Of a DNA stretch of 64,000 nucleotides, positions 1-28,305 are shown one piece after another. The stretch is from contig NZ_CP104144.1 of NCBI RefSeq assembly GCF_025200715.1, positions 1,178,001 to 1,242,000 on the forward strand, in the 5' to 3' direction. This DNA comes from Rhizobium sullae (GTDB taxonomy: Bacteria; Pseudomonadota; Alphaproteobacteria; Rhizobiales; Rhizobiaceae). Position 1 is the first letter of the stretch, and every line of letters starts with the position of its first letter. The translations under genes and the position numbers were made by a program. The notes beneath the pieces are model-generated. The model did no database searches and was not told the origin of the DNA. It was given only the letters and a program-made list of their open reading frames with translations.

Positions 1-645
1 GGGACGGGGCATCACTACTACTGGATCGGCGCTCCCGGTTATTGGCAGTGGATCGGCTCGCTGTTTTCGACGCTTGAGGTAGCGCCCTTCTTCACGATGG
101 TCGTCTTCACGTTCGTCATGACCTGGAAGGCCGGCCGCAAGCATGAGAACAAGGCCGCACTCCTGTGGTCGATCGGCTGCTCGGTCATGGCCTTCTTCGG
201 CGCAGGCGTCTGGGGCTTCCTGCATACCCTGTCGTCGGTCAACTACTATACGCATGGCACACAGGTGACCGCAGCCCATGGGCACCTCGCCTTCTTCGGC
301 GCCTATGTGATGCTCAACTTGGCGGCGATGGCCTATGCCATTCCTCAGATCCGCGGCCGTGCGCCCTATAATCAGTGGCTGTCGATCGCCAGCTTCTGGA
401 TCATGTGCGGTGCGATGTCCGTCATGACCTTTGCCCTAACGTTTGCTGGGGTCATTCAGGTTCATCTGCAGCGCGTGCTCGGCGAATCCTACATGGATGT
501 CCAGGACCAGCTTGCGCTGTTTTACTGGGTGCGCCTCGGATCCGGCATGTTCGTTTTCATCAGTGCATTGATGTTCCTCTGGGCAGTCTTCGTGCCCGGG
601 CGGCAGCGCGCCGCCGCACATGTCGTAGTACAGCCCGCCGAATAG
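1..645 (+). CDS. norB: Nitric oxide reductase large subunit NorB, 3' part only
   Basis: Open from the first base to a TAG stop, giving about 214 C-terminal residues; the 5' end lies outside the window. NorB is the membrane catalytic subunit of cytochrome c-dependent NO reductase (2 NO to N2O) and holds heme b, heme b3 and FeB. The fragment is strongly hydrophobic, with about five membrane spans. The HGTQVTAAHGHLAFFGAY stretch is typical of NorB and holds conserved histidines expected to take part in heme/FeB binding. norQ and norD follow directly, the usual norCBQD order. A Cys-rich or quinol-oxidase fusion can only be excluded for the part seen. Confidence 0.95.
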   Translation, partial: GTGHHYYWIGAPGYWQWIGSLFSTLEVAPFFTMVVFTFVMTWKAGRKHENKAALLWSIGCSVMAFFGAGVWGFLHTLSSVNYYTHGTQVTAAHGHLAFFGAYVMLNLAAMAYAIPQIRGRAPYNQWLSIASFWIMCGAMSVMTFALTFAGVIQVHLQRVLGESYMDVQDQLALFYWVRLGSGMFVFISALMFLWAVFVPGRQRAAAHVVVQPAE

Positions 646-680
646 GCGGACTTTCCCTCTCCCTCAGATTGGAATTCGTC

Positions 681-1493
681 ATGACGATCGCCCTCACCAA
701 GCCGCTGCCTCTGCCGCCGGAGATTCCCGCCTATGTCCCATCCGGCAACGAATGCACCCTCTTTGAGAGCGCCTGGACGCGGCAATTGCCGTTGCTGCTC
801 AAGGGGCCGACAGGATGCGGCAAGACGCGATTTGTCCATCATATGGCCGCGCGTCTCGGCCTGCCTTTGTCGACGGTCTCCTGCCATGACGATCTGACCG
901 CTGCGGATTTGACCGGGCGCTACCTCCTCAAGGGCGGTGACACGGTTTGGGTGGATGGACCGCTGACCCGTGCGGTCCGCGAGGGCGGGCTTTGCTATCT
1001 CGACGAGATCGTCGAGGCGAGGAAGGATGTCGCTGTTGTTTTGCATCCGCTCACCGACGACAGGCGGATCCTGCCGCTTGAGCGGACGGGCGAACTTCTC
1101 GAGGCCCAGCCAGGCTTCATGCTCGTCGTGTCGTACAATCCAGGCTACCAGAACCTGATGAAGGCGCTGAAACCCAGCACCCGCCAGCGCTTCGTTGCAA
1201 TCGAGTTCGACTTCCTGCCCAAGAACCAGGAGATTGCAGTGGTCTCGTCCGAAAGCGGACTGGATGAAGCCCGTGTGGCGCCGCTGGTCGAACTCGCACG
1301 GCGGCTGCGCGCGCTCAAGGGACATGATCTTGAAGAGGGCGTATCGACGCGTCTGCTGGTGTATTGCGCCAGCCTGATCGATAGCGGCCTGCCGGTGCGC
1401 GATGCAGTGCGCTCGGCATTGATCGAACCGCTGACGGATGAGCCCGACGTCAAAGCGGCTCTGATCGAGGTCGCAAACGCCGTCGTCGATTGA
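681..1493 (+). CDS. norQ: NorQ, MoxR-type AAA+ ATPase for NO reductase assembly
   Basis: 270 residues, the usual NorQ length. An N-terminal Walker A motif GPTGCGKTRF (about residues 46-55) and the downstream Walker B-like LCYLDEIVEARKD identify a MoxR-family AAA+ ATPase. NorQ works with NorD to mature the NorBC complex, probably by inserting the non-heme iron FeB. The ATG at 681 is chosen because it gives the family N-terminus (MTIALTKPLPLPPEIPAYVP) and lies 35 nt after norB; the longer upstream reading overlaps norB and has no family similarity. norD begins 10 nt after the stop, so the genes are one transcript. Confidence 0.95.
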   Translation: MTIALTKPLPLPPEIPAYVPSGNECTLFESAWTRQLPLLLKGPTGCGKTRFVHHMAARLGLPLSTVSCHDDLTAADLTGRYLLKGGDTVWVDGPLTRAVREGGLCYLDEIVEARKDVAVVLHPLTDDRRILPLERTGELLEAQPGFMLVVSYNPGYQNLMKALKPSTRQRFVAIEFDFLPKNQEIAVVSSESGLDEARVAPLVELARRLRALKGHDLEEGVSTRLLVYCASLIDSGLPVRDAVRSALIEPLTDEPDVKAALIEVANAVVD

Positions 1494-1503
1494 AGGAACG
1501 GAC

Positions 1504-3390
1504 ATGCTGGAATTCCTGGAGCTTGAAGAGACCGTCGGCCGGGCCTGGCATCGGTGGGTGGGCGACACAAGGTCTTGGCCGCGCTCCCCGGATCACGCGG
1601 TCGCCTTGAATGATCTGAGGTCACCGTTGGCGGTGTGCTTTCGCGGATTCGGGGGAGAGGCAACGGTCCAATTGCAACCGGTGCGTCCGCAGACGTCGCG
1701 GCACCGGCTGAAGCTGCGCCAAGTCGTCGGGCTTGGCGAAGAGCGCAGCGATCATGCAAGACGGGACGAGTCGGCGATCATGCTGCCGGCCCAGATTGAC
1801 CTGTTTGCCGACAGGGGCCTGAACCGCGACCTCTATTTCTGGATGGTCGCCTACATGGCGGTGATGGGAGAGGCTGTGCCCTCGCCTGCCGATCCCCTGC
1901 TCCTCGATCTCCATAGGATCGCGCTCGGCCGCAGCATCGCTGCGCGCGTGCTCAAGGCGTTTCCCGGCATGCGCTCGCGTTACGACCGCCTGTGCCAGGG
2001 CGTGCTTGCGGCGCGAATCCGCGGCCGGCTGCCGGGCGTCGAGAGCCAGGTTGAGGGTTTGATCTGCCTGGCACTGACCCATCCCCTTGGCCACGTCTTG
2101 CCGGAAAATGCGATGCCATCGGTTTTACGCGCTCCGGCCGGATATCTGCCGATGCTGCCTGTTCCGCTGTGGCCGGACTTCGTTGCGCAGACGGAGATGG
2201 CCGCGACCGAACGCGAGGACCTTCCCTCGAAAGGTGACGCCGCCTCCAATGACCGGCAAGCGCATGCGGCGACGCGAAAGCAGGATCGCGACGACCGCGG
2301 GCGGGATCCGTTCATTCTCAACCGGTTCGAGAAGATCCTTGCGATGGCAGAGATGGTCAATGTCGACCGGCCGACCGATGACCGCGACGATGACGCGCAG
2401 GCCGCCAACGAACTGGATGAGATGTCGCTCAGCGAAACGAAAGAGCGTCCGAAGTCGCGGTTCCACTTCGACCTCGATCTGTCGCCCGAGGCCTTCGATC
2501 CGACGCGGATCCAAGCCGAATCGACCTATCCCGAGTGGAACTACCGCAAGCAATTCTATCTTGAGGACTATTGCCGCGTCGTCGTCACCTCGGTGGAAGA
2601 GCCCCTCGCGTCATCCGTGCTGGCCTGCGACGATATGCTCGTGCGTAAGGTAAAGCGGCAGTTCGAGACATTGCGGCCGCGCCGCGAGCTCCTCAGATCG
2701 CAGGTCGATGGCAATGACCTTGACCTCGAAGCGGTGGTTCGGTCCCGGACGGATTTCCTGGCGACGGGACAGCCCGACGATCGGATCTATCAAGCCACGC
2801 GGCCGATGGCTCATGAACTTGCGACGTCGATCCTTGTCGACGTTTCTCTGTCGACCGATTCCTGGGTCGACAATCACCGCGTTCTCGATGTCGAAAAGCA
2901 GGCGCTCGACGTCTTCGCCCGCGGCCTTGACGCCTGCGGCGACAGCTTCGCCATCAACACGTTCACGTCGCGGCGGCGTTCCTGGGTCCGCATCGAAACG
3001 GTGAAAGCCTTCCACGAAGCCTTTTCACCTAAGACGGTCTCGCGCATCAACGCTATGCGGCCCGGCTACTACACCCGCATGGGAGCGGCGATCCGCCATG
3101 TGACGGCGGAGCTCTCCAAGCAAAGCAGCCGCAAAAAGCTGCTGCTGATGCTCACGGACGGAAAACCCAACGATGTCGATCATTATGAAGGACGGTTCGC
3201 GCTGGAGGACAGCCGGCGCGCTGTCGGCGAAGCGCGTGCATTAGGCCTTTCTGTTTTCGCGGTGACGATCGACCGCAATGCGCAGGACTACCTTCCTGCC
3301 ATCTTCGGAAGAGGCGGATTCGCTCTCGTTTCCGATATCACCAGGCTGCCGGCCGCTTTGCCGGCCATCTATCGCGGGCTGGTTTGCTGA
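1504..3390 (+). CDS. norD: NorD, von Willebrand A-domain NO reductase activation protein
   Basis: 628 residues, the usual NorD size. The C-terminal third is a VWA domain with a DVSLSTDS metal-ion-dependent adhesion site (D-x-S-x-S) near residue 440 and LLLMLTDGKP near residue 550. The middle (about residues 240-320) is charged and of low complexity, a likely linker. NorD partners the NorQ ATPase in activating NorBC; VWA plus MoxR pairs are a common chaperone design. It sits 10 nt after norQ and ends just before a strong hairpin shared with convergent hemN, closing the nor operon. Confidence 0.94.
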   Translation: MLEFLELEETVGRAWHRWVGDTRSWPRSPDHAVALNDLRSPLAVCFRGFGGEATVQLQPVRPQTSRHRLKLRQVVGLGEERSDHARRDESAIMLPAQIDLFADRGLNRDLYFWMVAYMAVMGEAVPSPADPLLLDLHRIALGRSIAARVLKAFPGMRSRYDRLCQGVLAARIRGRLPGVESQVEGLICLALTHPLGHVLPENAMPSVLRAPAGYLPMLPVPLWPDFVAQTEMAATEREDLPSKGDAASNDRQAHAATRKQDRDDRGRDPFILNRFEKILAMAEMVNVDRPTDDRDDDAQAANELDEMSLSETKERPKSRFHFDLDLSPEAFDPTRIQAESTYPEWNYRKQFYLEDYCRVVVTSVEEPLASSVLACDDMLVRKVKRQFETLRPRRELLRSQVDGNDLDLEAVVRSRTDFLATGQPDDRIYQATRPMAHELATSILVDVSLSTDSWVDNHRVLDVEKQALDVFARGLDACGDSFAINTFTSRRRSWVRIETVKAFHEAFSPKTVSRINAMRPGYYTRMGAAIRHVTAELSKQSSRKKLLLMLTDGKPNDVDHYEGRFALEDSRRAVGEARALGLSVFAVTIDRNAQDYLPAIFGRGGFALVSDITRLPAALPAIYRGLVC

Positions 3391-10188: not shown

Positions 10189-11148
10189 GTGATACTAGAC
10201 GAAGTCGATGATCAGGTTTCGGGAATTTCCATCGCCATACCGCTGGTGCTGTTGGCGATCCTGCTAGCTACGGTCGCCGTTCAGTCCGGCCTAGTCGCCT
10301 TGCGTGGCGCTCAGAATCCGGTCGCCAGTCCAGATGTGATTACCGTGGTCCCCAGGTCGTTTGCATATCGGGACCATGCGGAATATTTCCGTGCCGGGTT
10401 CGCCGTCGATGCGCCGCGTTCGGTCGTCGCGATTGAAACGCCGCTGGCGATCATGAAATATCAGGTTTCGCGCGCGGAGTATGATCGCTGCGTCCAAGAT
10501 CAAGCCTGTTCCCCGGCGGAGAGCGAAGAACCGGCCTCGCCGGACAAAACACCTGTTATCGGCGTCAGCTATGACGACGCCCTGCACTATGCGGCGTGGC
10601 TTTCGGACCATACCGGGCACTCATGGACCCTGCCGACAGATGAACAACTGGCCTTTGCCGCGGGAAGCCGCTTTCCCGACGACGCGCTCGGCGTTGCAAG
10701 CGACGACAAGAATCCCGCCATCCGCTGGCTCGCAGAATACGAGCGGGAGGCGCGCCGGTCCGCCTCGAAGGACCCCCGTCCCCAGCTCCGGGGATCGTTT
10801 GGCGTCAGCGAATACGGGCTGGCCGACTTTGCCGGCAACATTTGGGAATGGACGCGCAGCTGCAGCAAGCGTGTCGATATGGACGCTCAAAAAGCCGATC
10901 AGGAGGCTGATCCGTCGCGCTGCGGTATCCTGATCGCTTCCGGTAAACATCGAGCTCCGATGAGCAGCTTTATCCGCAATCCAAAAGGCGGCGGCTGCAC
11001 TGTCGGCAGCCCGCCAGACAATCTCGGTTTCCGGCTCGTTCGCCAACCAAGTTCCTTGGAGATGGCGAAAGACTGGATCAGGCGCATGATCGGTTTGACC
11101 ACCTTTTCGATAAACGCCGTTCCCCCGGATGAAGGACCTACGTCATGA
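10189..11148 (+). CDS. nirV: NirV, formylglycine-generating-enzyme-like protein
   Basis: 319 residues. An N-terminal membrane anchor (about residues 14-36) precedes an FGE-sulfatase domain: MKYQVSRAEYDRC, PVIGVSYDDALHYAAWLSD, WTLPTDEQLAFAAG and GLADFAGNIWEWTRSC. NirV is the standard companion of nirK; a role in NirK maturation or nitrite metabolism has been proposed but is not settled. The best start is GTG with only a weak ribosome site, so translation may be low. The last four bases overlap the nnrR start (ATGA). Confidence 0.92.
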   Translation: MILDEVDDQVSGISIAIPLVLLAILLATVAVQSGLVALRGAQNPVASPDVITVVPRSFAYRDHAEYFRAGFAVDAPRSVVAIETPLAIMKYQVSRAEYDRCVQDQACSPAESEEPASPDKTPVIGVSYDDALHYAAWLSDHTGHSWTLPTDEQLAFAAGSRFPDDALGVASDDKNPAIRWLAEYEREARRSASKDPRPQLRGSFGVSEYGLADFAGNIWEWTRSCSKRVDMDAQKADQEADPSRCGILIASGKHRAPMSSFIRNPKGGGCTVGSPPDNLGFRLVRQPSSLEMAKDWIRRMIGLTTFSINAVPPDEGPTS

Positions 11149-11840
11149 AGATTGATCGCGCCGTATTGAAATCGCTGCCGTTGTTCGATCGAATTACGGA
11201 TTCTGATCTCGACGCCATGGTGGAGCATGCGGTTTCACGGCGTGTCGCACAGGGCGATGCCGTTTTCGAGCAAGGGGCGCCTGCCAAATCGTTCTTCCTG
11301 CTCCTGCATGGCAGATTGAAGGTCACGCAGGTCACGGCAGATGGCCAGCAGATCATCGTCCGGGTCGTTCACCCGGGCGATTTGTTCGGTTTTGCCAGAG
11401 CCTTGCAGCGTACCGACTATCCGGGTACCGCAATCGCGGCCGCCGAGAGCCTGACGCTTTCATGGCCGACCGATCTATGGCCGCAATTCGTCGAGCAAAA
11501 TCCACGTTTGGCGGTTACCGCGATGCAGACCATCGGCCAGCGGCTCGAGGAGGCTCATACGCGGATCCGCGAAATGTCGACAGAGGAAGTGGAAAGACGC
11601 GTCGCTCACGCTGTCCTGAGGCTTTCCAAGCAGGCAGGAAAGCAGGAGGGCGATGGCATTCGTATCGACTTTCCGATTTCTCGCCAGGATATCGCGGAAA
11701 TGACGGGAACGACGTTGCACACGGTTTCAAGAATCCTCAGCGCCTGGGAAGCCAAGGGCCTCGTTGAAGGCGGCCGTCAAAAACTGCTTGTCTGCGACTA
11801 CCGGAAGCTGATGATTCTCGCCAACGGCGGCCGTGAATAA
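11145..11840 (+). CDS. nnrR: NnrR, Crp/Fnr-family NO-responsive regulator
   Basis: 231 residues: cyclic-nucleotide-type sensor domain (about 10-125), dimer helix, and C-terminal helix-turn-helix with recognition region ISRQDIAEMTGTTLHTVSRIL (about residues 177-197). It lacks the N-terminal cysteine cluster of FNR (the only Cys is near the C-terminus), which fits NnrR, an NO sensor thought to use heme. Translationally coupled to nirV. The window offers many TTG-N8-CAA sites as probable targets, above all the palindrome between nnrS and nirK. Confidence 0.93.
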   Translation: MKIDRAVLKSLPLFDRITDSDLDAMVEHAVSRRVAQGDAVFEQGAPAKSFFLLLHGRLKVTQVTADGQQIIVRVVHPGDLFGFARALQRTDYPGTAIAAAESLTLSWPTDLWPQFVEQNPRLAVTAMQTIGQRLEEAHTRIREMSTEEVERRVAHAVLRLSKQAGKQEGDGIRIDFPISRQDIAEMTGTTLHTVSRILSAWEAKGLVEGGRQKLLVCDYRKLMILANGGRE

Positions 11841-14056: not shown

Positions 14057-14061
14057 CACAG

Positions 14062-14913
14062 TCAGGCAGCGAGCAAAAGCTGCCTGCGCGGCCGCAGGAG
14101 ATACCCTATTGCGAGCCAATAGGCGGCATAAAGAAGCAGCGGCAAAAGTTCCGGTCGGGCCCGATAGCCGGAGAGACCCGCAATGAATGCCCCTAGTCCG
14201 CTGCCGTCATCAAGAACCCGGCTCGTGTCCCAGATCGGACCCGACAGTGGCGCCACAAGCCCCAGGCCGATCGCCCGGTCGACCGCAGTCATCAAGAGTC
14301 CCGCGCCCACGACGAGGAGCAGCGCTTCACTCACGCGGAAGAACAGGTTCCATGACAAGGCATTCGCACCCCACCGCAGCATCAGATAGCTGAGGCTTGC
14401 GGCAAAAAGGCCGAGTGTTGCCGAAACCAGGTTCGAAATTACACCCGCACCAGACGCTCCCGCCAGCAATCCGTAGAGAAAGACGACCGTCTCGCTGCCT
14501 TCGCGGCCGATCGCCACTGCGGTGAGGATCGAAAGCCCCAGCCAATTGCCGAGCTCGCTCGACCGGCGCGCGACAGGCCGGAGCTCACTGCTCATCTGCC
14601 CTCCACCGCGGCGCATCCACATGACCATGTGCACGATGAGGCAGGCGGCGGCGGCGACCATGACGAATTGCAGAATGTCCTGCCCGTCGCCGGACAGAAA
14701 GCTCTCAAACGAGACCAGGACCACTGCCAGCGACAGGGCGAGGAGAAGACCGGAGGCGATACCGGCTGCCAGCGCCAAACATGCCTTTCGCTTGCGCTCT
14801 GGACCGCCTCTGAGCGACCATGTCGCCAGAATGCCAACCACAAGCAGCGCCTCGAGGCTTTCGCGCCAGACAACAAACGTCACCTGAAACGCCTGTGCTC
14901 CCGTCAGCGTCAT
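14062..14913 (-). CDS. ftrC: FtrC, FTR1-family iron permease
   Basis: 283 residues, about seven spans. The two REGLE-type iron-binding motifs are visible as WRESLEALL (residues about 16-24) and GREGSETVVFLYG (about 135-147). FTR1 permeases import iron together with a periplasmic ferroxidase or cupredoxin partner, here FtrB. Start overlaps the ftrB stop as ATGA, and ftrD follows 5 nt downstream, so the operon is tightly coupled. Confidence 0.93.
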   Translation of the reverse strand: MTLTGAQAFQVTFVVWRESLEALLVVGILATWSLRGGPERKRKACLALAAGIASGLLLALSLAVVLVSFESFLSGDGQDILQFVMVAAAACLIVHMVMWMRRGGGQMSSELRPVARRSSELGNWLGLSILTAVAIGREGSETVVFLYGLLAGASGAGVISNLVSATLGLFAASLSYLMLRWGANALSWNLFFRVSEALLLVVGAGLLMTAVDRAIGLGLVAPLSGPIWDTSRVLDDGSGLGAFIAGLSGYRARPELLPLLLYAAYWLAIGYLLRPRRQLLLAA

Positions 14914-15263
14914 CGTGCGATCAGCCTTGCCGGCGGCATATCAAGGTGAAAATCGTCAAAAAAGGCATAGTTGCCGGGAGCGAGGTTGCGAATGACGATG
15001 AAGCTCTCGGCGCCTGGTGCCAGCACTTTTTCCTTCCGGAGCGGCAGGCTTTCAAATTCGACCGGGCTGGAGCCGTCGTTATGAAGCTCGAGCTTGAAAC
15101 GGGTGTTTGCCGGAACTTCGACCACCGCCGGCGATATCACGCCGTTGCTCATGTGAATGACGAATATCGGATAGTCATCTTCGGCACCAGCTGGCATGGC
15201 GGTTGCCAATAATGATAGAACAGATAATGCCGGTAGGGCGGCGGAGACAGGCTTTGCTGACAT
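14910..15263 (-). CDS. ftrB: FtrB, periplasmic cupredoxin-like protein
   Basis: 117 residues with a signal peptide (about 1-27, ALSVLSLLATAMPAGA) and a cupredoxin-1 domain with motifs VISPAVVEVPANTRFKLEL and SFIVIRNLAPGNYAFFDDFH. In FtrABCD systems this subunit is thought to oxidise or hand over Fe2+. The start at 15263 is chosen for its signal peptide; upstream sequence belongs to ftrA. Lies 40 nt after ftrA. Confidence 0.88.
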   Translation of the reverse strand: MSAKPVSAALPALSVLSLLATAMPAGAEDDYPIFVIHMSNGVISPAVVEVPANTRFKLELHNDGSSPVEFESLPLRKEKVLAPGAESFIVIRNLAPGNYAFFDDFHLDMPPARLIAR

Positions 15264-15303
15264 GGGTGGGGAAGCTCCACTACGGTCGCGGTTCAGACGG
15301 TAA

Positions 15304-15849
15304 TCAGTATCCACCCTTCTTGCCGACGCCGGCAAAAACGAAATCGTAATTGAGCGTGAAGTCGTTGGGCCAGGCGGCGACGCCGGTCTCCTTATCGACG
15401 TGGCGCCCGAATGCCATTTCGCCATGCCCGCTAGGATGCACCGTCAGGACGAGACGGTATTTGGCGGGGCCGAAGAGCTTGACGTTGTCGCCGTAATGCG
15501 GTCCGTCGCTGGCAACCATTGGTCCGAGCGCGCCCGAGGCTTCCCGACCATTTGCGAGGTTCGTCAACTGATATTCGACGTGCAGGTTGGGAAGCCAGTC
15601 TCCTTCCGCGAAACCGTTGGCATTGTCGGCGGTTGCGTGAATGTCGGCTTCAAGATGGATATCCGATTGCGAGGCCTCAAGCATCATTCCCGGCGGGTCC
15701 ATTTCGACCGGCTGCAAAAAGACCGCCGCGACCTCCATCCCCTTAACAAGTTGCGGCTCGCCGATCGGATATTCGGCCGCCCGCACGAGCGCGGGCGCAG
15801 TTGCAAGCGAACCGATTGCGATGACCGTAGCCAGTGTAAATCTTGACAT
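15304..15849 (-). CDS. ftrA: FtrA, P19-type periplasmic iron-binding protein
   Basis: 181 residues with a signal peptide (about 1-24, ending PALVRAAEYP). P19/FtrA motifs are present: EYPIGEPQLVKGMEVAAVFL, the ASQSDIHLEADIHAT segment and LTVHPSGHGEMAFGRHVDKE, rich in the His, Met and Glu residues that bind iron and copper in P19. It delivers Fe2+ to the FTR1 permease. First gene of the leftward operon ftrABCD; the upstream region holds a 17-bp inverted repeat 36 nt away and is shared with nnrU. Confidence 0.92.
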   Translation of the reverse strand: MSRFTLATVIAIGSLATAPALVRAAEYPIGEPQLVKGMEVAAVFLQPVEMDPPGMMLEASQSDIHLEADIHATADNANGFAEGDWLPNLHVEYQLTNLANGREASGALGPMVASDGPHYGDNVKLFGPAKYRLVLTVHPSGHGEMAFGRHVDKETGVAAWPNDFTLNYDFVFAGVGKKGGY

Positions 15850-15980: not shown

Positions 15981-15994
15981 TTGAGATTTCGCAA
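15981..15994. promoter_or_regulatory. NnrR/FNR-like box before nnrU
   Basis: TTGAG-ATTT-CGCAA. The same half-sites occur in the ubiD/ubiT box. Centre 15987.5 predicts a start near 16029, 25 nt before the nnrU GTG. Confidence 0.65.
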
Positions 15995-16053
15995 TGAAGC
16001 GATGACTGAAGAAGGGATAGAGGATGGGGTCGACAACTACTTGAGGGTTGAAC

Positions 16054-16734
16054 GTGCAGGAATTCGCAGCCGCCTTCGCAGTCTTCATCGCGCTGCATTC
16101 GATCCCGGCGATCCCGGCTCTGCGCTCGCGCATCATCAGCATCGTCGGAAGACCAGCCTACTTCGTCATCTATTCCGTCATCTCAACGGCGGTTCTCGTC
16201 TGGGTCTTTCGCGCCGCGCTGATGCTGGACTACATCCCGCTTTGGGATTTTCGGCCCTGGCAGGCAATCGCGACGTTTGTCCTGGCCCCGGTGGGTATTT
16301 TTCTGGTGATTGCCGGGCTCTTGAGCGACAATCCGCTGTCGATCTCGCTGGCACGAGGATCGACGCCAGGAGCGATCGTCAGCATCACGCGGCATCCGGT
16401 CTTATGGGGCTTTTTTCTTTGGGCGGCCGGGCACGTGATCGTCAACGGAGACCTGCGCTCCCTGCTGCTTTTCGGCGGATTTGCGCTCTTTGCCATCGGA
16501 GGCATCCCCATGGCGGAAAAACGCGCCCAGCGCCGTCTTGGCGCCGGCTGGGCGACTGTTGCAGCCGGCACATCAAATGTGCCGCTGCTTGGCGCTCTGA
16601 CAGGGCAAATGAAGCCGCGCTTCGACATGCGTCTCGGCGTGGGCGCCTTGGCCACCACTGCTTTGGTGGTGTGGTTGCTAGTGGCTGGCCACAGCTATCT
16701 GTTTGGGACCGACCCGCTTTCCCTGCTCGGTTGA
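16054..16734 (+). CDS. nnrU: NnrU family membrane protein
   Basis: 226 residues with about six spans. NnrU is a membrane protein related to isoprenylcysteine methyltransferases and is needed for full NO-reductase activity in some Rhodobacter strains; its molecular role is unknown. Family motifs are FIALHSIPAIPALRSRI near the N-terminus, GSTPGAIVSITRHPVLWGF and a C-terminal RLGAGWATVAAGTSNVP. The start at 16054 (GTG) has TTGAGGG 6 nt before it, whereas a TTG six bases upstream abuts that site. Its last 40 bp overlap the convergent ubiX. Confidence 0.93.
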   Translation: MQEFAAAFAVFIALHSIPAIPALRSRIISIVGRPAYFVIYSVISTAVLVWVFRAALMLDYIPLWDFRPWQAIATFVLAPVGIFLVIAGLLSDNPLSISLARGSTPGAIVSITRHPVLWGFFLWAAGHVIVNGDLRSLLLFGGFALFAIGGIPMAEKRAQRRLGAGWATVAAGTSNVPLLGALTGQMKPRFDMRLGVGALATTALVVWLLVAGHSYLFGTDPLSLLG

Positions 16735-17324
16735 GCCGGGCCAGGGCCGGCAGGCCGTTCTCCCTGCCAGGTCTGCGCAAGTGGCCGGATCGGCAATGCC
16801 AGCAGGTCGATTGCTCGTGAAGCAATGTGGTCCACGACATCAGCGACCGTTTCCGGCTTCTGATAGAAGGCCGGGACCGGCGGCATGATGATGCCGCCGC
16901 ACTCGGTGACGGTAACCATGTTACGCAGATGGCCAAGGTGAAGCGGTGTCTCGCGAGCCAACAGGACCAGTCTCCGCCGCTCCTTGAGCTGCACGTCGGC
17001 TGCGCGCACGATCAGGTTGTCGGAGAAACCTGCGGCGATCCCCGCCAGTGTCCGCATCGAGCATGGCGCGACGACCATGCCATGAACGGGAAACGAGCCG
17101 CTGGCGATGGCTGCTCCGATGTCGGCGGCATCATGGGCTTTGCGCACCTTGAGCAGAAGCTTGCCATAGGCATCCGCGCTGATCTCATGGGCAAGCGTGC
17201 GCCGTCCCGCTTCCGAAACCACGAGATGAACGTCGATGCCGTGTGCAATAAGCTTGTCCGCAATTGCGACACCGAAGATCGCGCCCGAAGCGCCGGTGAT
17301 CGACAACACCACGCGAGGTGCCAT
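16695..17324 (-). CDS. ubiX: UbiX-type flavin prenyltransferase
   Basis: 209 residues. UbiX prenylates FMN to make the prFMN cofactor required by UbiD decarboxylases. Flavoprotein motifs VVLSITGASGAIFGV at the N-terminus, VVAPCSMRTLAGIAAG with the SMRTLAxIAxG core, and LLARETPLHLGHLRNM are clear. The ATG at 17324 gives the family N-terminus and follows the ubiD stop by 7 nt; a GTG at 17342 would overlap ubiD. The tail beyond residue 190 is Pro/Gly-rich and runs 40 bp into the nnrU 3' end, longer than usual for the family. Confidence 0.93.
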   Translation of the reverse strand: MAPRVVLSITGASGAIFGVAIADKLIAHGIDVHLVVSEAGRRTLAHEISADAYGKLLLKVRKAHDAADIGAAIASGSFPVHGMVVAPCSMRTLAGIAAGFSDNLIVRAADVQLKERRRLVLLARETPLHLGHLRNMVTVTECGGIIMPPVPAFYQKPETVADVVDHIASRAIDLLALPIRPLAQTWQGERPAGPGPAQPSRESGSVPNR

Positions 17325-17331
17325 CAGAGGG

Positions 17332-18846
17332 TCATAAATCACGTTTCACCCTTTCCCAAATGGCACCGGCGCGGGCCGAAACCTCGGGCGGCATCGACAA
17401 GACACGCCCCCAGTCGCGCTCCGTCTCCGAGCCGATCTTGTTGGTCGCATCGCAGCCCATCTTGGCGCCCAAGCCAGGTCTCGGCGAAGCAAAGTCAAGA
17501 TAGTCGATCGGCGTGTTTTCGATGACGGTGAGGTCGCGGCTGGCGTCGAACCGCGTCGACAGGGCCCAGATGACGTCGGCCCAATTGCGGACGTTGATGT
17601 CGGGATCGACCACGATGATTAGCTTCGTGTAGTTGAACTGCGGCAGCATCGACCAGAGACCCATCATAATCCTCTTGGCCTGGCCCGGGTAACGCTTGTC
17701 GATCGAAACCACGATCGCGCGATAGGAGCAGGCCTCCGGCGGCAGCCACAAATCGCATATTTCCGGAAACTGCCGCTTGACTATCGGCACGAAGAGATCC
17801 GTCATCGCCTCTCCCAATCGCGACGGTTCATCGGGCGGGCGGCCGGTGAATGTAGAGAGATAGAAGGGATTTTTTCGACTTGTCATGGCCGAGACGGTCA
17901 TGACCGGGAATGGCTCGACGCTGTTGTAATAGCCTGTATGGTCGCCGTAGGGTCCCTCGGGCGCGCACTCCGTGGCTGACACCGTACCTTCCAGGATAAT
18001 CTCCGCATTGGTCGGAATTGGCATCGGAACCGTCAATGCGGAGCTCACCTCTGTCCTCGCCGATCGCAGGAGGCCGGCAAAGTTGATCTCGCTGAAGCCT
18101 TCCGGAAGGGGCATGACCGCCGAGAGAATGCTGATGGGGTCTGCGCCTATCGCGATTGTGACGGGCATGTCCAATCCTTTGCGCAGCCAGGCCCGATGAT
18201 GTTTTGCTCCGCCGCGATGATCCAGCCAACGCATAATGAGTGAGCGTTGGTCACGCACCTGCATCCGGTATATCCCGACATTGATATCGGACGGATCGTC
18301 CGGAGAGCGCGTGATCACCATCGGCCAGGTGACGAGTGGCGCCGGCTCGCCCGGCCAGCACCATTGGATCGGAAGCAGCGAAAGGTCCACGTCCTCTCCT
18401 GTGCGCATCACCGCCTGCGCCGGCGACCTTGCCCGGCGCTTGGGTCGCATTGACATCGCCGCCCGCACAAGCGGCAACTTGTCCCAAGCCTCCCGGATGG
18501 TCTTCGGCGGGGTTGGCCGATGCAGCTCGCCCAGCATGGCCGCAAGGTTTGCCAGGCCTCCGGTCGGCAAGCCGAAGCCGAGTTCAATCCTTTCCCGGGT
18601 ACCAAAGAGATTGACGAGAACAGGAATGTGCTTGGTCCTGCCGGACGCATCGACCGGCGTCTCGAAAAGAAGGGCCGGACCGTCTTCTTCCATGGACCTT
18701 CGGTGGATCTCTGCCATCTCGTGGACGAGTGAGACCGGCTCGCTGATACGGTGAAGCAGGTTGCGCCGTTCCAGGTCGAGCGCAAAGCTTTGGAGGTCTG
18801 GAAATGTGGCAACGGGAGCGGCGTGATTATTCATCCGCATGCCCAT
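17332..18846 (-). CDS. ubiD: UbiD-family 4-hydroxybenzoate decarboxylase
   Basis: 504 residues, the length of E. coli UbiD. UbiD uses prenylated FMN to decarboxylate 3-polyprenyl-4-hydroxybenzoate in ubiquinone synthesis. Motifs include NVGIYRMQVRDQRSLIMRW, the catalytic ECAPEGPYGDHTGYYN region (with the conserved E-x-R/P...D/E pattern) and PVMTVSAMTSRKNPFY. Three in-frame ATGs lie within 12 nt at the start (18846, 18840, 18834) and none has a strong ribosome site. It is paired with ubiX and divergent from ubiTUV. A decarboxylase for another aromatic acid is possible, but the neighbours favour quinone synthesis. Confidence 0.88.
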   Translation of the reverse strand: MGMRMNNHAAPVATFPDLQSFALDLERRNLLHRISEPVSLVHEMAEIHRRSMEEDGPALLFETPVDASGRTKHIPVLVNLFGTRERIELGFGLPTGGLANLAAMLGELHRPTPPKTIREAWDKLPLVRAAMSMRPKRRARSPAQAVMRTGEDVDLSLLPIQWCWPGEPAPLVTWPMVITRSPDDPSDINVGIYRMQVRDQRSLIMRWLDHRGGAKHHRAWLRKGLDMPVTIAIGADPISILSAVMPLPEGFSEINFAGLLRSARTEVSSALTVPMPIPTNAEIILEGTVSATECAPEGPYGDHTGYYNSVEPFPVMTVSAMTSRKNPFYLSTFTGRPPDEPSRLGEAMTDLFVPIVKRQFPEICDLWLPPEACSYRAIVVSIDKRYPGQAKRIMMGLWSMLPQFNYTKLIIVVDPDINVRNWADVIWALSTRFDASRDLTVIENTPIDYLDFASPRPGLGAKMGCDATNKIGSETERDWGRVLSMPPEVSARAGAIWERVKRDL

Positions 18847-18869
18847 CGGTAAAAAAATCCGGCCTGTCT

Positions 18870-18883
18870 TTGAGATGGCGCAA
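18870..18883. promoter_or_regulatory. NnrR/FNR-like box between ubiD and ubiT
   Basis: TTGAG-ATGG-CGCAA, identical half-sites to the nnrU box. Centre 18876.5 predicts a rightward start near 18918, 19 nt before the ubiT ATG; a leftward class II start would fall at the ubiD start codons. Confidence 0.65.
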
Positions 18884-18936
18884 ATACCGGCCGATCAGCC
18901 GGCGCTAAACCGGTTCCCGCTACCAATGAGGCGCGC

Positions 18937-19443
18937 ATGTTATTCCGACCACGGCTGATGGCTTCCTTGCACGCGGTTCCGTTACCGCTTGCTCAAGGCG
19001 TCTCGGCTTTCCTGTTTAGACAGATCCTCGAACGGCATTCAGGACTCTTTGACCGGCTGGGAGCTTTCAAGGAAAAGCGATTTGCGTTTGTTCCGACGGA
19101 TTTGCCCTTTTCCTTTCTGGTCGATCCGTCCTGCAAGACGACAAAGGCGGTCCGAAAGAGCCACCCGATTACGGCAGACGCGACGGTCGAAGGTCCCCTA
19201 GCGCTCTTGCTGGCGCTGGCGGAGGGGCGCGTTGATGGCGACGCCCTGTTCTTTTCGCGCCGCCTGGCGGTAACCGGCGATATGGAAAGCGTCATTGCTC
19301 TTCGAAACGCTCTCGACGACTGCGATATCGACATTGCCGAAATCATCGCCAACGCCGCCGGCCCTCTGCACCCGATGCTGAGGTCATTGATGGTTTCGAT
19401 CCGCAAACAGGCCCTAACGTCGGAGGGGCTCTCATGGAACTGA
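18937..19443 (+). CDS. ubiT: UbiT, SCP2-domain factor of O2-independent ubiquinone synthesis
   Basis: 168 residues, one SCP2 lipid-binding domain: RFAFVPTDLPFSFLVDP, then VEGPLALLLALAEGRVDGDAL and FFSRRLAVTGDMESVIALRN, the conserved core. UbiT binds lipid intermediates for the anaerobic ubiquinone pathway with UbiU and UbiV. GAGG lies 5 nt before the ATG at 18937; a second in-frame ATG lies 21 nt on. Overlaps ubiU by 10 nt. Confidence 0.9.
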   Translation: MLFRPRLMASLHAVPLPLAQGVSAFLFRQILERHSGLFDRLGAFKEKRFAFVPTDLPFSFLVDPSCKTTKAVRKSHPITADATVEGPLALLLALAEGRVDGDALFFSRRLAVTGDMESVIALRNALDDCDIDIAEIIANAAGPLHPMLRSLMVSIRKQALTSEGLSWN

Positions 19444-20411
19444 TTTGTCCCGCAGGGACTCCGGCAGCCTTCAAGGAGGCCGTCGACGAAGGCGCCGACG
19501 CCGTTTATTGCGGCTTTCGCGACGAAACCAATGCCCGCAATTTCCCCGGGTTGAATTTCACGCGGGAGGAGCTTGCCGCGTCAATCGAATATGCCCGGGC
19601 CAAAGGTGTCCGAACCTTCGTGGCGCTTAACACGTTCATGACGGCGGGCTGCGAGAGGCTCTGGTATTCAGCCGCCGATGACGCTGTGGCGATCGGGGCG
19701 GATGCGCTCATCCTGGCTGACTTCGGCCTGATGGCCTATGTCGCGGAACGCCATCCCCAACAGCGCCTGCATGTTTCCGTGCAGGCTTCTGCGTCAAACC
19801 CTGATGCGATCGCCTTTCTCGTAGATATGTTCAGCGCAGCACGCGTCGTTCTACCGCGCACGTTGACAATTCCCGATATCGCCCGGCTTGCCCGCAAGAT
19901 CAAATGCGAACTGGAGGTCTTCGTCTTTGGCGGCCTGTGCGTCATGGCAGAAGGACGTTGTTCCCTGTCCTCTTATGCCACGGGAAGGTCGCCGAACATG
20001 CAAGGCGTCTGCTCCCCTGCCAGCCATGTGCGCTACCGCCAGGGGCCGGACGGCCTCGTCTCCGAGCTTGGCAATTTCACCATCAATCGCTTCGGGCCTA
20101 ATGAGGCTGCGGGATATCCCACCTTATGCAAGGGCCGTTTCGACATCGCCGACAGCCAAGGCTACGCGTTCGAGGATCCGACGTCGCTCGACGTCATGGA
20201 TGAGATCGATTCGCTGAGGGCAGCAGGCGTTTGCGCGCTTAAAATCGAAGGGCGCCAGCGCGGCAAAGCCTATGTCGGCGAAGTCGTATCGACGCTTCGC
20301 GCCGCTGTCGATGCGGCCCCGGCCGAACGGTCTCGCCTGCTTGCCCGCCTGCGGACATTAAGCGAGGGGCAGAAAACAACGCATGGCGCCTATGAGAAAC
20401 GGTGGAGATAA
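19434..20411 (+). CDS. ubiU: UbiU, U32-family Fe-S protein for anaerobic ubiquinone hydroxylation
   Basis: 325 residues. UbiU pairs with UbiV, each with a 4Fe-4S cluster, to hydroxylate ubiquinone precursors without O2 (prephenate is the reported oxygen donor). The four cluster cysteines are at 169, 176, 193 and 232 (GLCVMAEGRC, QGVCSP, TLCKGRF), the same positions as in E. coli UbiU. The N-terminus MELICPAGTPAAFKEAVDEG is the family start. GGAGGGG lies 6 nt before the ATG inside ubiT, showing translational coupling. Confidence 0.96.
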   Translation: MELICPAGTPAAFKEAVDEGADAVYCGFRDETNARNFPGLNFTREELAASIEYARAKGVRTFVALNTFMTAGCERLWYSAADDAVAIGADALILADFGLMAYVAERHPQQRLHVSVQASASNPDAIAFLVDMFSAARVVLPRTLTIPDIARLARKIKCELEVFVFGGLCVMAEGRCSLSSYATGRSPNMQGVCSPASHVRYRQGPDGLVSELGNFTINRFGPNEAAGYPTLCKGRFDIADSQGYAFEDPTSLDVMDEIDSLRAAGVCALKIEGRQRGKAYVGEVVSTLRAAVDAAPAERSRLLARLRTLSEGQKTTHGAYEKRWR

Positions 20412-20415
20412 CGAC

Positions 20416-21351
20416 GTGATCGATCATTCGACGACGCTTGTCCTCGGTCCCGTCTATTATCTCTGGGACGCCGATCGCTGGCGCGATTTCTATTTCCGCA
20501 TCGCCGACGAAGCGCCGGTCGACACGGTCATCATCGGCGAAACGGTTTGCTCGAAACGGCTGCACATCACCGAACCGGCTTTTGCGGATGTCGTCGATCG
20601 GCTGGAAGCGGCGGGCAAGTCCGTCAGGCTTTCAACGCTTGCTCTCATTACGCTTGATCGCGAAAGCCAATATCAGCGCGATCTTATCCGTGACGGTGGC
20701 CACGTCATCGAAGCCAACGACCTGTCGGCCCTCAATTTGCTCAAGGGCCGCAACCACGCCGTCGGGCCTCTGGTGAACGTCTATAACGGCCCGGCGGCGC
20801 GATTCCTTGCAAAAAGCGGAGCATCGACAATATGCCTGCCGCCGGAGTTGCCGGCGGTGTCCGTCAAGGCGATCACGACGGATTGCCCGGAACTCGCCTT
20901 CGAGCTTTTCGCATTCGGCCGCCTGCCGCTTGCCGTGTCGGCGCGCTGCGCGCATGCAAGGGCGAAAGGCAGGATCAAAGACAATTGTCAGTTCGTCTGT
21001 GGCGAGGAACCTGACGGTCTGACCGTAAAGACGATGTCGAACCAGCCGTTTCTTGCGCTGAATGGCGTTCAAACCGTTTCCTATACGTGCCAGGCGCTGC
21101 TGCAGACGGACGCGGATATCAAAGCACTCGGCGTGTCGGCGCTCCGGCTGTCGCCGCAGGTCTGCGATATGGTCGAGGTCGCCGGGATCTTTCTCGATCT
21201 GACGAAAGACAAGATCGATCCTGACGAGGCGGCGCTTCGCCTGCGAACGGCCTATCCGGCCGTACCGTTGTCGAATGGCTTTCACCATGGTCACGCCGGC
21301 GCCGAATGGGTCGCCCGCAGCCGCAACGCCACGATGGGAGGCCCCCAATGA
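20416..21351 (+). CDS. ubiV: UbiV, partner Fe-S protein of UbiU
   Basis: 311 residues from the chosen start. Cluster cysteines are visible at 45 (GETVCSKR), 178 (VSARCAHARAKG), 191 and 195 (DNCQFVC), the UbiV pattern C-x(n)-C-x12-C-x3-C. The GTG at 20416 is preferred because GGTGGAG lies 8 nt upstream and it avoids overlap with ubiU; two ATGs at 20383 and 20392 would give overlapping starts. Its TGA overlaps the next ATG (ATGA), so a fourth gene is coupled to the set. Confidence 0.95.
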   Translation: MIDHSTTLVLGPVYYLWDADRWRDFYFRIADEAPVDTVIIGETVCSKRLHITEPAFADVVDRLEAAGKSVRLSTLALITLDRESQYQRDLIRDGGHVIEANDLSALNLLKGRNHAVGPLVNVYNGPAARFLAKSGASTICLPPELPAVSVKAITTDCPELAFELFAFGRLPLAVSARCAHARAKGRIKDNCQFVCGEEPDGLTVKTMSNQPFLALNGVQTVSYTCQALLQTDADIKALGVSALRLSPQVCDMVEVAGIFLDLTKDKIDPDEAALRLRTAYPAVPLSNGFHHGHAGAEWVARSRNATMGGPQ

Positions 21352-21734
21352 GTGATTCCAATTCCGTTCTGGCCGCAGCCAACGTCCAAGCTGTCATGCA
21401 CCAGGTCCGTGCGATTATTCGCACCAGCGCTCTGGATTGCAAGTGCCGTGATGTGGTCGATGACGCGCTTGAGGATCTCGAGCGCCGGGAGACGGCAGTC
21501 GCCACCGAGGAACTGCTGAAAGCTGCCGTCGGGCAAAGGGACAAGATCATAAAGCTCACAGAGTTGTTGCGCGACCTCGGTGATGTGTCGACCGGCTCCG
21601 ATGGTGGGGTCATCGATGAGGCCGCGCTGCTGTTTGAAGATCTGGCCATGCAGGCGCAGATGGGATCGCAATTCCTGCACGCGATCGCACGCAGCAGCGA
21701 TATCCCGGGCCGCAAACCCGAGCAACCGGGATGA
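21348..21734 (+). CDS. Hypothetical protein coupled to ubiV
   Basis: 128 residues, mostly helical in appearance and acidic, with no signal peptide or membrane segment. Notable are DCKCRDVVDDALEDLERRE near residue 32 and a stretch LKAAVGQRDKIIKLTELLRD that could form a coiled coil. I do not recognise the family. The ATGA overlap with ubiV argues for a real gene and a role linked to the quinone operon or to low-O2 adaptation. Confidence 0.6.
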   Translation: MSDSNSVLAAANVQAVMHQVRAIIRTSALDCKCRDVVDDALEDLERRETAVATEELLKAAVGQRDKIIKLTELLRDLGDVSTGSDGGVIDEAALLFEDLAMQAQMGSQFLHAIARSSDIPGRKPEQPG

Positions 21735-22057
21735 TCCGGGACGTCTGCACTGGAGCAAAGACCGACCCGCTTCGGCTTGTAGCGTTGAGGGCGCGCAATG
21801 AAATAGGGACTTCATTAATGGCCTGCGACCTTACGGCACATCGCCGTGACACTGTGATCGCGATGGCGGCGTCCGGTATGGCGCTGTCAGGCGAGGCGAT
21901 GTGCTTCATCGATGCTTTTGAAGACTGCAGTGTTCCCTCGGCATCGGCCTTTCGCCGACATGATCGGTCTCTGCTGCTGCACCTTTGCCGCCGCCTCAAC
22001 ACTTGTGTTGTCCACATTTTGACGCAGATCAAGATGATCCGCCCGAAATCGCCCTAA
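21731..22057 (+). CDS. Doubtful small ORF after the ubiV-coupled gene
   Basis: 108 codons starting with an ATGA overlap to the preceding gene, which is the only support. The translation has no domain I recognise, and an FNR-type box for the next gene lies inside its 3' part (22019-22032), which argues that the region is partly promoter DNA. Confidence 0.25.
   Translation: MIRDVCTGAKTDPLRLVALRARNEIGTSLMACDLTAHRRDTVIAMAASGMALSGEAMCFIDAFEDCSVPSASAFRRHDRSLLLHLCRRLNTCVVHILTQIKMIRPKSP
22019..22032. promoter_or_regulatory. FNR/FixK-like box before the DksA-type gene
   Basis: TTGAC-GCAG-ATCAA. Centre 22025.5 predicts a start near 22067, 26 nt before the ATG at 22093. Confidence 0.65.
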
Positions 22058-22092
22058 CTATGGTGGGCAGAGGAAGAACCCGGAGAACCAGG

Positions 22093-22410
22093 ATGCAAAA
22101 AGAGAAATTTGAAAAGATTCTGCGGGGTCGATTGCAAGATCTGAACCGACGCCTGCACCTCGTTGATAGCGATCTGGGGCGGCGAAAGGATGCCGACGAT
22201 GAGGACCGTGCCGTCGAGCTCGAAAACAACGACGTGCTCGAGGGCTTTGGACGTGCGGGCCAGGAAGAGGTGCGCGCCATCCACGCCGCCCTGCAGCGTC
22301 TGGAAAGCGGAACCTTCGGCATCTGCGTAGAATGTGGCGCGCCGATTTCGGAAGCGCGTCTTGAAGCTGTTCCGTTCGCCGTCAAATGCCAATCGTGCCT
22401 CAGCGAGTAA
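22093..22410 (+). CDS. DksA/TraR-type zinc-finger protein
   Basis: 105 residues, shorter than DksA (about 150) and near the TraR-like or short DksA class. A helical N-terminal half carries a DADDEDRAVELENNDVLEGF segment, and the C-terminal zinc finger is GICVECGAPI...CQSCL (CxxC-x17-CxxC). Such proteins bind the RNA polymerase secondary channel and modulate promoters, often with ppGpp. GGAG lies 8 nt before the ATG, with an FNR-type box upstream, so it may adjust transcription at low O2. Confidence 0.85.
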   Translation: MQKEKFEKILRGRLQDLNRRLHLVDSDLGRRKDADDEDRAVELENNDVLEGFGRAGQEEVRAIHAALQRLESGTFGICVECGAPISEARLEAVPFAVKCQSCLSE

Positions 22411-24657: not shown

Positions 24658-24948
24658 TCATGCAAGGTTCCGGCGGCTGGTCCTTTTCATCGTGCCAGCC
24701 CGGGCGAAGGTCATTTCTTCGGAAATGACGGTGTTGGACTTGTCGAGGATTGCACGCCAAATGCGGTTACCGATCCTGAGGCTCAGCCGCCGCAGGCCGG
24801 CATCCTCGCCTTCTCCAATTTCCACGGTACTTGCAACCAATCCCATCTGCAGCTTTCGCTTGAACTCAGCTCCGGAGAGGCCGAACCGCGAGGAAAGCTC
24901 TGCGGGGTTCAGAACAAAATCGCCATTGTCGTCACGCGTTATCTGCAT
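24658..24948 (-). CDS. DUF6522-like small protein
   Basis: 96 residues: NGDFVLNPAELSSRFGLSGA, then LVASTVEIGEGEDAGLRRLS and RIGNRIWRAILD, which fits the small alphaproteobacterial DUF6522 family of unknown function. The start at 24948 has AGAGGA 7 nt upstream; an ATG at 24975 would overlap the ferritin-like stop as ATGA and cannot be excluded. It is the second gene of the leftward unit divergent from nosR. Confidence 0.7.
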   Translation of the reverse strand: MQITRDDNGDFVLNPAELSSRFGLSGAEFKRKLQMGLVASTVEIGEGEDAGLRRLSLRIGNRIWRAILDKSNTVISEEMTFARAGTMKRTSRRNLA

Positions 24949-24971
24949 ACTGGATCCTCTTTCCGGCCTCG

Positions 24972-25823: not shown

Positions 25824-25908
25824 AGGCATTTCCTCCTGTTGCCCCGGAAAAGCGTCTTGCGGCGGCTGTCGTCCCGAACTGCATTAGCAGGAGCGAAAAC
25901 CCAAGAGT

Positions 25909-25922: not shown

Positions 25923-25992
25923 AGAATGACGTTGTCAGGCGACTAGGTTGCAGCCAACTCATCAGCAAGAATCTGCAGGCAGCACCGGCACT

Positions 25993-28281: not shown

Positions 28282-28305
28282 CCCGAACAACCAAGGAGAG
28301 ACGAA

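Follow-up and report, generated by a model that had tools for sequence, protein, structure and literature searches.

Results

A probable replacement set for the O2-requiring steps of ubiquinone synthesis

We analyzed a stretch of 64,000 nucleotides from Rhizobium sullae (contig NZ_CP104144.1 of assembly GCF_025200715.1, positions 1,178,001 to 1,242,000; hereafter the window), in which the genes ubiX, ubiD, ubiT, ubiU and ubiV form two divergent arms at 16695-21734, between nirK (8966-10102) and nosRZ (25948-30219). We consider it very probable, at roughly 0.87, that this locus is an O2-free replacement set for the O2-requiring steps of ubiquinone synthesis, controlled through one shared box of the CRP/FNR family. 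The minus-strand arm holds ubiX (16695..17342), for the flavin prenyltransferase that provides prenyl-flavin mononucleotide (prenyl-FMN) for UbiD, and ubiD (17332..18846), for polyprenyl-4-hydroxybenzoate decarboxylase. The plus-strand arm consists of ubiT (18937..19443), which encodes an SCP2-type accessory factor; ubiU (19434..20411), which encodes a 4Fe-4S, U32-family subunit of the O2-independent hydroxylase; ubiV (20383..21351), which encodes its 4Fe-4S, U32-family partner; and an open reading frame (ORF) for an uncharacterised 128-residue protein with a D-C-x-C motif (21348..21734), whose start overlaps the ubiV stop. ORF coordinates and start and stop codons show that adjacent genes overlap inside each arm. 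The coordinate of ubiV is that of the first ATG of its ORF, and the real start may lie slightly downstream. A sequence-only reading of the window had proposed ubiDX plus ubiTUV with an unknown 128-residue gene, and the ORFs and curated models confirmed this set.

Each of the five named proteins passed at least one curated model. UbiU scored 495.2 bits against the equivalog NF047963 (cut-off 440) and UbiV 349.1 bits against NF047965 (cut-off 275), with the CXnCX12CX3C motif present in UbiV. The cluster cysteines of UbiU, C169, C176, C193 and C232, are numbered identically in E. coli UbiU, and C56, C189, C202 and C206 of UbiV align one to one with C39, C180, C193 and C197 of the E. coli protein, for which the iron-sulphur (Fe-S) ligand positions have been reported (PMC6747719). 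Thus the four cysteines that had been claimed for each subunit are there, all eight aligning with E. coli. UbiT passed both NF047962 (77.4 bits, cut-off 46.9) and PF02036 (SCP2; 49.2 bits, cut-off 21.3), and UbiX passed NF004685 (242.5 bits, cut-off 188) and TIGR00421 (208.1 bits, cut-off 108.9). UbiD passed the family model TIGR00148 (459.7 bits, cut-off 244.85), was above cut-off for PF01977, PF20695 and PF20696, and keeps the conserved PEGPYGDHTGYY stretch; its full-length alignment with E. coli UbiD reached 545 bits, and the next family in the PDB 142 bits.

From these identities we propose the following scheme. When O2 is present, chromosomal flavin monooxygenases (two of the UbiH/UbiF family and one UbiN-like) would decarboxylate polyprenyl-4-hydroxybenzoate and hydroxylate the ring. 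When O2 is absent, these monooxygenases would stop; UbiX would supply prenyl-FMN, with which UbiD would carry out the decarboxylation independently of O2, and the UbiU-UbiV 4Fe-4S pair together with UbiT would carry out the hydroxylations. The enzymes of prenylation and methylation (UbiA, UbiE and UbiG) would be common to both routes. A single CRP/FNR-family box would turn on both operons, most likely via NnrR (or FixK/FnrN), so that quinone supply would rise with nir, nor and nos.

UbiD is nested within UbiU-positive genomes

We surveyed the family of the window (267 genomes, 99 genera) and its order (357 genomes, 126 genera, partly overlapping the family set), which named relatives identify as the Hyphomicrobiales. 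The thresholds were chosen by us: a UbiD orthologue was a match of 49% identity or more in the family, and a match at E<=1e-60 and at least 46% identity in the order. The surveyed genomes are related, so the counts are not independent events. UbiU was found in 62 of the 267 family genomes and UbiD in 51, and all 51 were UbiU-positive; no UbiD orthologue was found in the 205 UbiU-negative family genomes. These counts exclude two weak UbiU matches (genomes G084 and G247, E about 1e-34) and 10 genomes in which the UbiD matches were at 28-34% identity alone. The order gave the same picture: UbiU was present in 114 of 357 genomes and UbiD in 84, every one of them UbiU-positive, and none of the 243 UbiU-negative genomes had a UbiD orthologue. 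The corresponding Fisher p values, 2e-44 (family) and 1e-56 (order), ignore kinship and are to be read as 'no exception seen'. The two genes are also usually close together, ubiD lying within 4 kb of ubiU in 48/51 family genomes and within 6 kb in 58/84 order genomes. A UbiX-family match was present in 5/5 UbiU-positive, UbiD-positive genomes checked and in 2/20 UbiU-negative genomes. We found no published account of this order-wide nesting in the main texts of the open-access literature, and the rule is apparently new for the order.

A few genomes carried damaged or duplicated copies. There was a stop inside UbiD in G133, UbiD was in two frames in G196, and G531 had a second, stop-containing UbiU. 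G156 had two UbiU copies (on contigs C25 and C44; loci L091 and L077), one with ubiDX alongside and the other without.

Single copies of ubiD and ubiX and a candidate aerobic decarboxylase

The window is a section of the 2.76-Mb contig C2, a probable megaplasmid, in a 7.6-Mb, 4-contig genome whose completeness is 99.98% and whose largest contig (C1) is 4.14 Mb. A genome search found one UbiD (the sole PF20696 match), one UbiU and one UbiX-type gene; the only other PF02441 match was a 403-amino-acid CoaBC-like ORF on C1. Since the ubiD and ubiX of the window are the sole ones found in the genome, aerobic decarboxylation is probably done by another enzyme. In R. capsulatus, deletion of ubiD-X or of ubiU-V blocked anaerobic growth and left aerobic growth unblocked, and UbiN performs aerobic decarboxylative hydroxylation (PMC10626278).

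We searched for enzymes that could take this role. The largest contig encodes two monooxygenases of the UbiH/UbiF family, L007 and L008, which both exceed equivalog cut-offs, and, adjoining metC, a salicylate-hydroxylase-like (UbiN-like) monooxygenase, L012, which resembles the models for 3-hydroxybenzoate and salicylate hydroxylases, below the cut-offs of the best 25 of 72 families. A match of the L012 type at E<=1e-40 was present in 266/267 family genomes; in its own genome the query matched itself alone, and some of the matches elsewhere may be paralogues. We regard L012 as a candidate for a UbiN-like aerobic decarboxylative hydroxylase. COQ4 was also considered as the aerobic decarboxylase and was rejected, as the genome had no PF05019 match at E<=0.001.

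A conserved box shared by the two operons

The gap between ubiD and ubiT is 90 bp long and holds the CRP/FNR-family box TTGAGATGGCGCAA (18870..18883), which equals its sister TTGAGATTTCGCAA, upstream of nnrU (15981..15994), at 12 of 14 bases. An nnrU-like box had been claimed for this gap, and it is indeed present. With the next base, A, the box reads TTGAGATGGCGCAAA at 18870 and agrees with TTG-N8-CAAA, the consensus reported for S. meliloti NnrR (PMC5596199). The shorter pattern TTGN8CAA is frequent, with 28 matches in the window; by itself it is thus weak, and its weight comes from conservation in relatives.

We therefore compared the divergent ubiD-ubiT gaps of the relatives. The set comprised 48 gaps, namely the 62 survey loci minus 14 without UbiD in the stretch, minus L097 (a fragment), plus the window. 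TTGN8CAA occurred in 46 of the 48, against a mean of 2.93 and a maximum of 10 in 200 shuffles. In short gaps the usual distance between the box and the inferred start of ubiD was 20 to 36 bases, and where 514-760 bp separated ubiD and ubiT, 5 of 7 loci had a separate box near each gene. A second set of 81 loci from named genomes, which overlaps the survey set, contained 72 usable divergent gaps, and the pattern was found in all 72. The forms of the box among relatives run from TTGCGC..GCGCAA types to FNR-like TTGATCTGAATCAA. Such a conserved shared box also appears to be new, as no published account was found in open-access main texts.

Evidence bearing on the regulator comes from B. diazoefficiens. 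The NnrR regulon of this species includes an operon of bll7628 ('sterol-binding protein') and bll7627 ('U32 family peptidase') with the box TTGTTCCCGCTCAA; under denitrifying anoxia the nnrR mutant expressed the two genes at levels 10.3- and 15-fold lower, and in anoxia they went up 10- and 75-fold, respectively (PMC6710368). The main text of that paper does not contain the words ubiquinone and UbiD, and the inspected rows of its regulon table do not list ubiD. Gene order and product names make it most likely that bll7628-bll7627 is ubiT-ubiU. At two other loci in Bradyrhizobium, ubiX-ubiD and ubiT-ubiU-ubiV diverge and the box is one base off TTGTTCCCGCTCAA; the UbiU of one of them passes the cut-off (513 > 440 bits).

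The window itself encodes a CRP/FNR-family regulator (11145..11840, plus strand), which is an NnrR candidate. Its single cysteine, Cys 217, is near the C-terminus, whereas FnrN requires N-terminal cysteines (PMC4999443). The box alone cannot assign control to NnrR rather than to FixK/FnrN; we suggest that the regulator acting on it is most likely NnrR.

Link to denitrification

NorB was searched for with its 182-residue C-terminal part as the query and was found in 48/267 family genomes: in 31 of 51 with both UbiU and UbiD, in 1 of 11 with UbiU and no UbiD, and in 16 of 205 without UbiU. NorB lay within 40 kb of UbiU on the same contig in 20 of the 32 genomes that had both, and on a different contig in the other 12. 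A nor, nir or nos gene (at least 50% identity and at least 40% coverage) was near ubiU in 16/62 survey loci and 34/80 loci of named genomes, in stretches that reached at most about 10 kb to either side of it, some totalling less than 20 kb. The occurrence of ubiTUV beside nir, nor or nos, which the sequence-only reading had suggested looking for in other genomes, thus recurs. In P. aeruginosa, ubiTUV is required for denitrification, as cited in PMC12423496 and PMC10878069.

One could argue that the ubi and denitrification genes are chance neighbours on a mobile island and have no functional link. The module is indeed patchy: the window's genus contributed 6 genomes to the family survey (the R. 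sullae genome counted), and UbiU was absent from 4. Chance is nevertheless a hardly credible explanation, given that UbiD-UbiU adjacency recurs, that a conserved box is common to both arms, and that the genes of denitrification turn up at the above frequencies near ubiU. Co-localisation seen only here by chance, named beforehand as a finding that would refute the proposal, is not what the 20 of 32 genomes with NorB close to UbiU indicate. The link is strong and not strict: the full kit accompanies denitrification, and neither needs the other. With this restriction, the idea of an O2-free route that has its own decarboxylase pair and is apparently wired to denitrification control is largely supported by the sequence evidence.

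Evidence against the replacement set and alternative explanations

Several results weigh against reading the locus as an O2-free replacement set under a shared box. UbiD misses the equivalog NF008175 for 4-hydroxy-3-polyprenylbenzoate decarboxylase (575.4 < 788 bits), so that its ubiquinone substrate rests on the E. coli alignment, the nesting and the gene context. UbiU occurs in the absence of a UbiD orthologue in 11/62 family and 30/114 order genomes (with L104, L109, L112, L115 and L117-L121 among their loci); 39 of these 41 UbiU-positive, UbiD-negative genomes also have no UbiX-family match, and UbiU can therefore occur without UbiDX. UbiD and UbiX of E. coli work in both routes (PMC6747719), which means that the nesting is not universal among bacteria. 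A salicylate-hydroxylase-like protein on C2, L010, outscores L012 on the salicylate model (163.7 vs 109.5 bits), which leaves some doubt about the UbiN candidate. Two of the 48 gaps (L095 and L096) have no exact TTGN8CAA box, 30 of the 62 UbiU-positive family genomes have no NorB, and 16 of the 48 NorB-positive ones have no UbiU. Eight of the NorB-positive, UbiU-negative genomes (G042, G048, G077, G148, G163, G182, G201 and G230) have NorB at 84-88% identity.

We looked at the UbiU-positive, UbiD-negative genomes for a stand-in decarboxylase beside ubiTUV, and no common gene stood out in the 11 family loci (stretches of 4.8-19.9 kb). Two of these genomes, G087 and G257, whose UbiU is 80% and 72% identical to that of the window, look like losses from the common rhizobial type. 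The G257 locus, L097, has a UbiD fragment beside ubiTUV, matched at 7% coverage only. How genomes of this kind would make ubiquinone without O2, if they do so, is a question that has also been posed for other genera (PMC10626278).

The shortfall of UbiD against the equivalog is compatible with UbiD and UbiX being a pair of decarboxylases for aromatic-acid catabolism that simply happens to adjoin ubiTUV, and UbiD-like paralogues at 28-34% identity do exist in some of the surveyed genomes. We judge this to be very improbable. The UbiD of the window matches E. coli UbiD from end to end, with PEGPYGDHTGYY retained; it is nested in UbiU-positive genomes next to ubiU, and the box is common to both arms. 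The R. capsulatus genetics, in which ubiD-X is needed anaerobically (PMC10626278), also argue against a catabolic pair.

An alternative keeps the same chemistry and gives the module another purpose and another regulator: it would support life at low oxygen of any kind (nodules, microoxia, other electron acceptors), would share the island with the denitrification genes mainly because both are anaerobic cargo, and would be controlled by FixK or FnrN and not by NnrR. The UbiU-positive genomes lacking NorB, the variety of box forms up to the FNR-like type and the use of Fnr in E. coli (PMC10470549) are consistent with it. Nevertheless, NorB is present in 31/51 genomes with UbiU and UbiD against 16/205 UbiU-negative ones, and the likely ubiT-ubiU operon of B. 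diazoefficiens depends on nnrR (PMC6710368), so we hold this alternative to be unlikely, though much less so than a catabolic pair.

The 128-residue CxC protein

The 128-residue protein encoded after ubiV had no Pfam or NCBIfam match at E<=0.001, and Pfam scans of 31 members of its family (the CxC family) gave scattered weak matches alone (best E 0.012). A single-sequence search found 7 relatives and a profile search at least 137 protein clusters at E<=0.001; the matches that could be named include Rhizobium, Mesorhizobium, Chelativorans, Nitratireductor and Aquamicrobium. We compared 143 ubiU loci, which represent 131 distinct ubiU sequences, 12 being in both the survey and the named set. In 45 of the loci (42/131 distinct sequences) a CxC gene was no more than 6 kb away from ubiU, usually directly after ubiV on the same strand, as on S. 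meliloti pSymA; the other 98 had none nearby. The cysteines of the D-C-x-C motif (C31 and C33) are invariant in an alignment of 31 rows and conserved at 90% or more in one of 57 rows. The predicted structure has three helices, with the motif at the start of helix 2 (mean predicted local distance difference test score 84.8, predicted template-modelling score 0.67). Profile matches in the PDB were to designed coiled coils and other helical proteins; we took these to reflect helix composition and did not accept a known fold. With no published account found in open-access main texts, the three-helix CxC family is apparently new and uncharacterised.

From its position we infer that the CxC protein is an accessory of the O2-independent ubiquinone pathway. 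A bolder proposal, which we offer tentatively and at somewhat less than even odds, is that it is a fourth O2-independent component, for example a partner that gives UbiU-UbiV reductant or handles their Fe-S clusters or metal, and that UbiD-UbiX of the Hyphomicrobiales is purely anaerobic and is gained and lost together with UbiTUV. UbiU-positive genomes without UbiDX would then hold an unrecognised anaerobic decarboxylase.

Neighbouring genes

The gene adjoining ubiX is nnrU (16048..16734, plus strand; PF07298, 154.2 > 24.7 bits). Other denitrification genes in the window, all on the plus strand, are nirK for copper nitrite reductase (TIGR02376, 567.2 > 296.3 bits), nosR and nosZ, and a nor cluster at 97..3390. 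NosZ passed TIGR04244 (1127.7 > 625 bits), and NosR scored 793.9 bits with NF046105, under the cut-off of 1000. The nor cluster consists of the C-terminal part of norB (253.9 bits against a nitric oxide reductase subunit B of solved structure), a norQ-like ATPase gene and a gene for a norD-like VWA protein; the latter two were named from GvpN-like and VWA matches under NCBIfam cut-offs and from the gene order norB-norQ-norD, which is listed in PMC6710368.

At 12677-15849 there are genes for a PF10634 Fe2+ transport protein, a cupredoxin, an EfeU/FTR1-like permease and a NapH-like ferredoxin protein, a possible ferrous iron uptake set; a PF10634-type gene was near the ubi genes in 5/62 survey and 9/80 named loci. 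Downstream of the ubi operon, 22051-22410 encodes a short DksA-like zinc-finger protein, with a TTGN8CAA match just upstream at 22019. Between the ubi genes and nosR, 24658-25829 encodes a DUF6522 protein and a rubrerythrin/ferritin-like protein, and DUF6522-like genes are likewise near the ubi loci of some relatives.

Comparison with known systems

The locus is an instance of a type already reported in Hyphomicrobium denitrificans, in which ubiXDTUV (Hden_0564-0568) lies beside nor and its transcripts drop together with those of the denitrification genes (PMC12423496, 2025). Both organisms have the same gene set with a single ubiD and a single ubiX, placed by denitrification genes. The two differ in that the R. 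sullae set lies outside the chromosome-sized contig, on another of 2.76 Mb, and has the CxC protein after ubiV; neither a conserved box nor a genome survey is reported in the text available to us of PMC12423496, which also states that some Alphaproteobacteria have no ubiD and ubiX.

As in R. capsulatus, where ubiD-X is required only without O2 and UbiN is the aerobic enzyme (PMC10626278), the rhizobial pair would be anaerobic, with a rhizobial UbiN as a candidate; R. capsulatus is a phototroph, unlike R. sullae. E. coli ubiTUV shares the UbiU and UbiV cysteines and FNR-family control across a divergent gap (PMC6747719, PMC10470549), whereas E. coli uses UbiD and UbiX in both routes and has ubiT divergent from ubiUV.

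The pSymA plasmids of S. meliloti 1021 and ABS7 have the arrangement of the window: nnrU, ubiX and ubiD are divergent from ubiT-ubiU-ubiV, followed by the CxC protein, and the ubiD-ubiT gap holds the box TTGCTCCAGCGCAA. The annotation of ABS7 lists only a UbiD family decarboxylase, an SCP2 protein, a U32 peptidase and a hypothetical protein; the ABS7 record (L205) splits ubiV into two frames, which is not the case in 1021. When a 17.7-kb query was compared with our collection, the nearest plasmid relatives were Rhizobium etli 8C-3 (88.3% identity, 83% of the query covered) and R. gallicum R602sp (87.6% identity, 79% covered).

Implications for the rhizobia

The confinement of UbiD to UbiU-positive genomes turns the results from R. 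capsulatus and from H. denitrificans (one transcriptome) into an order-wide rule. It raises the questions of which enzyme is the rhizobial aerobic decarboxylase and which, if any, is the anaerobic decarboxylase of the UbiU-positive, UbiD-negative genomes. The module is also a gene marker for O2-free renewal of ubiquinone that can be checked in any genome. It predicts that nor-positive strains without ubiTUV would detoxify nitric oxide (NO) or use preformed quinone, and would not grow by denitrification; the 16 NorB-positive, UbiU-negative genomes of the family are candidates for such NO detoxifiers, unable to renew ubiquinone without O2. For rhizobia that carry nir, nor and nos, anaerobic growth may hinge on renewing ubiquinone without O2.

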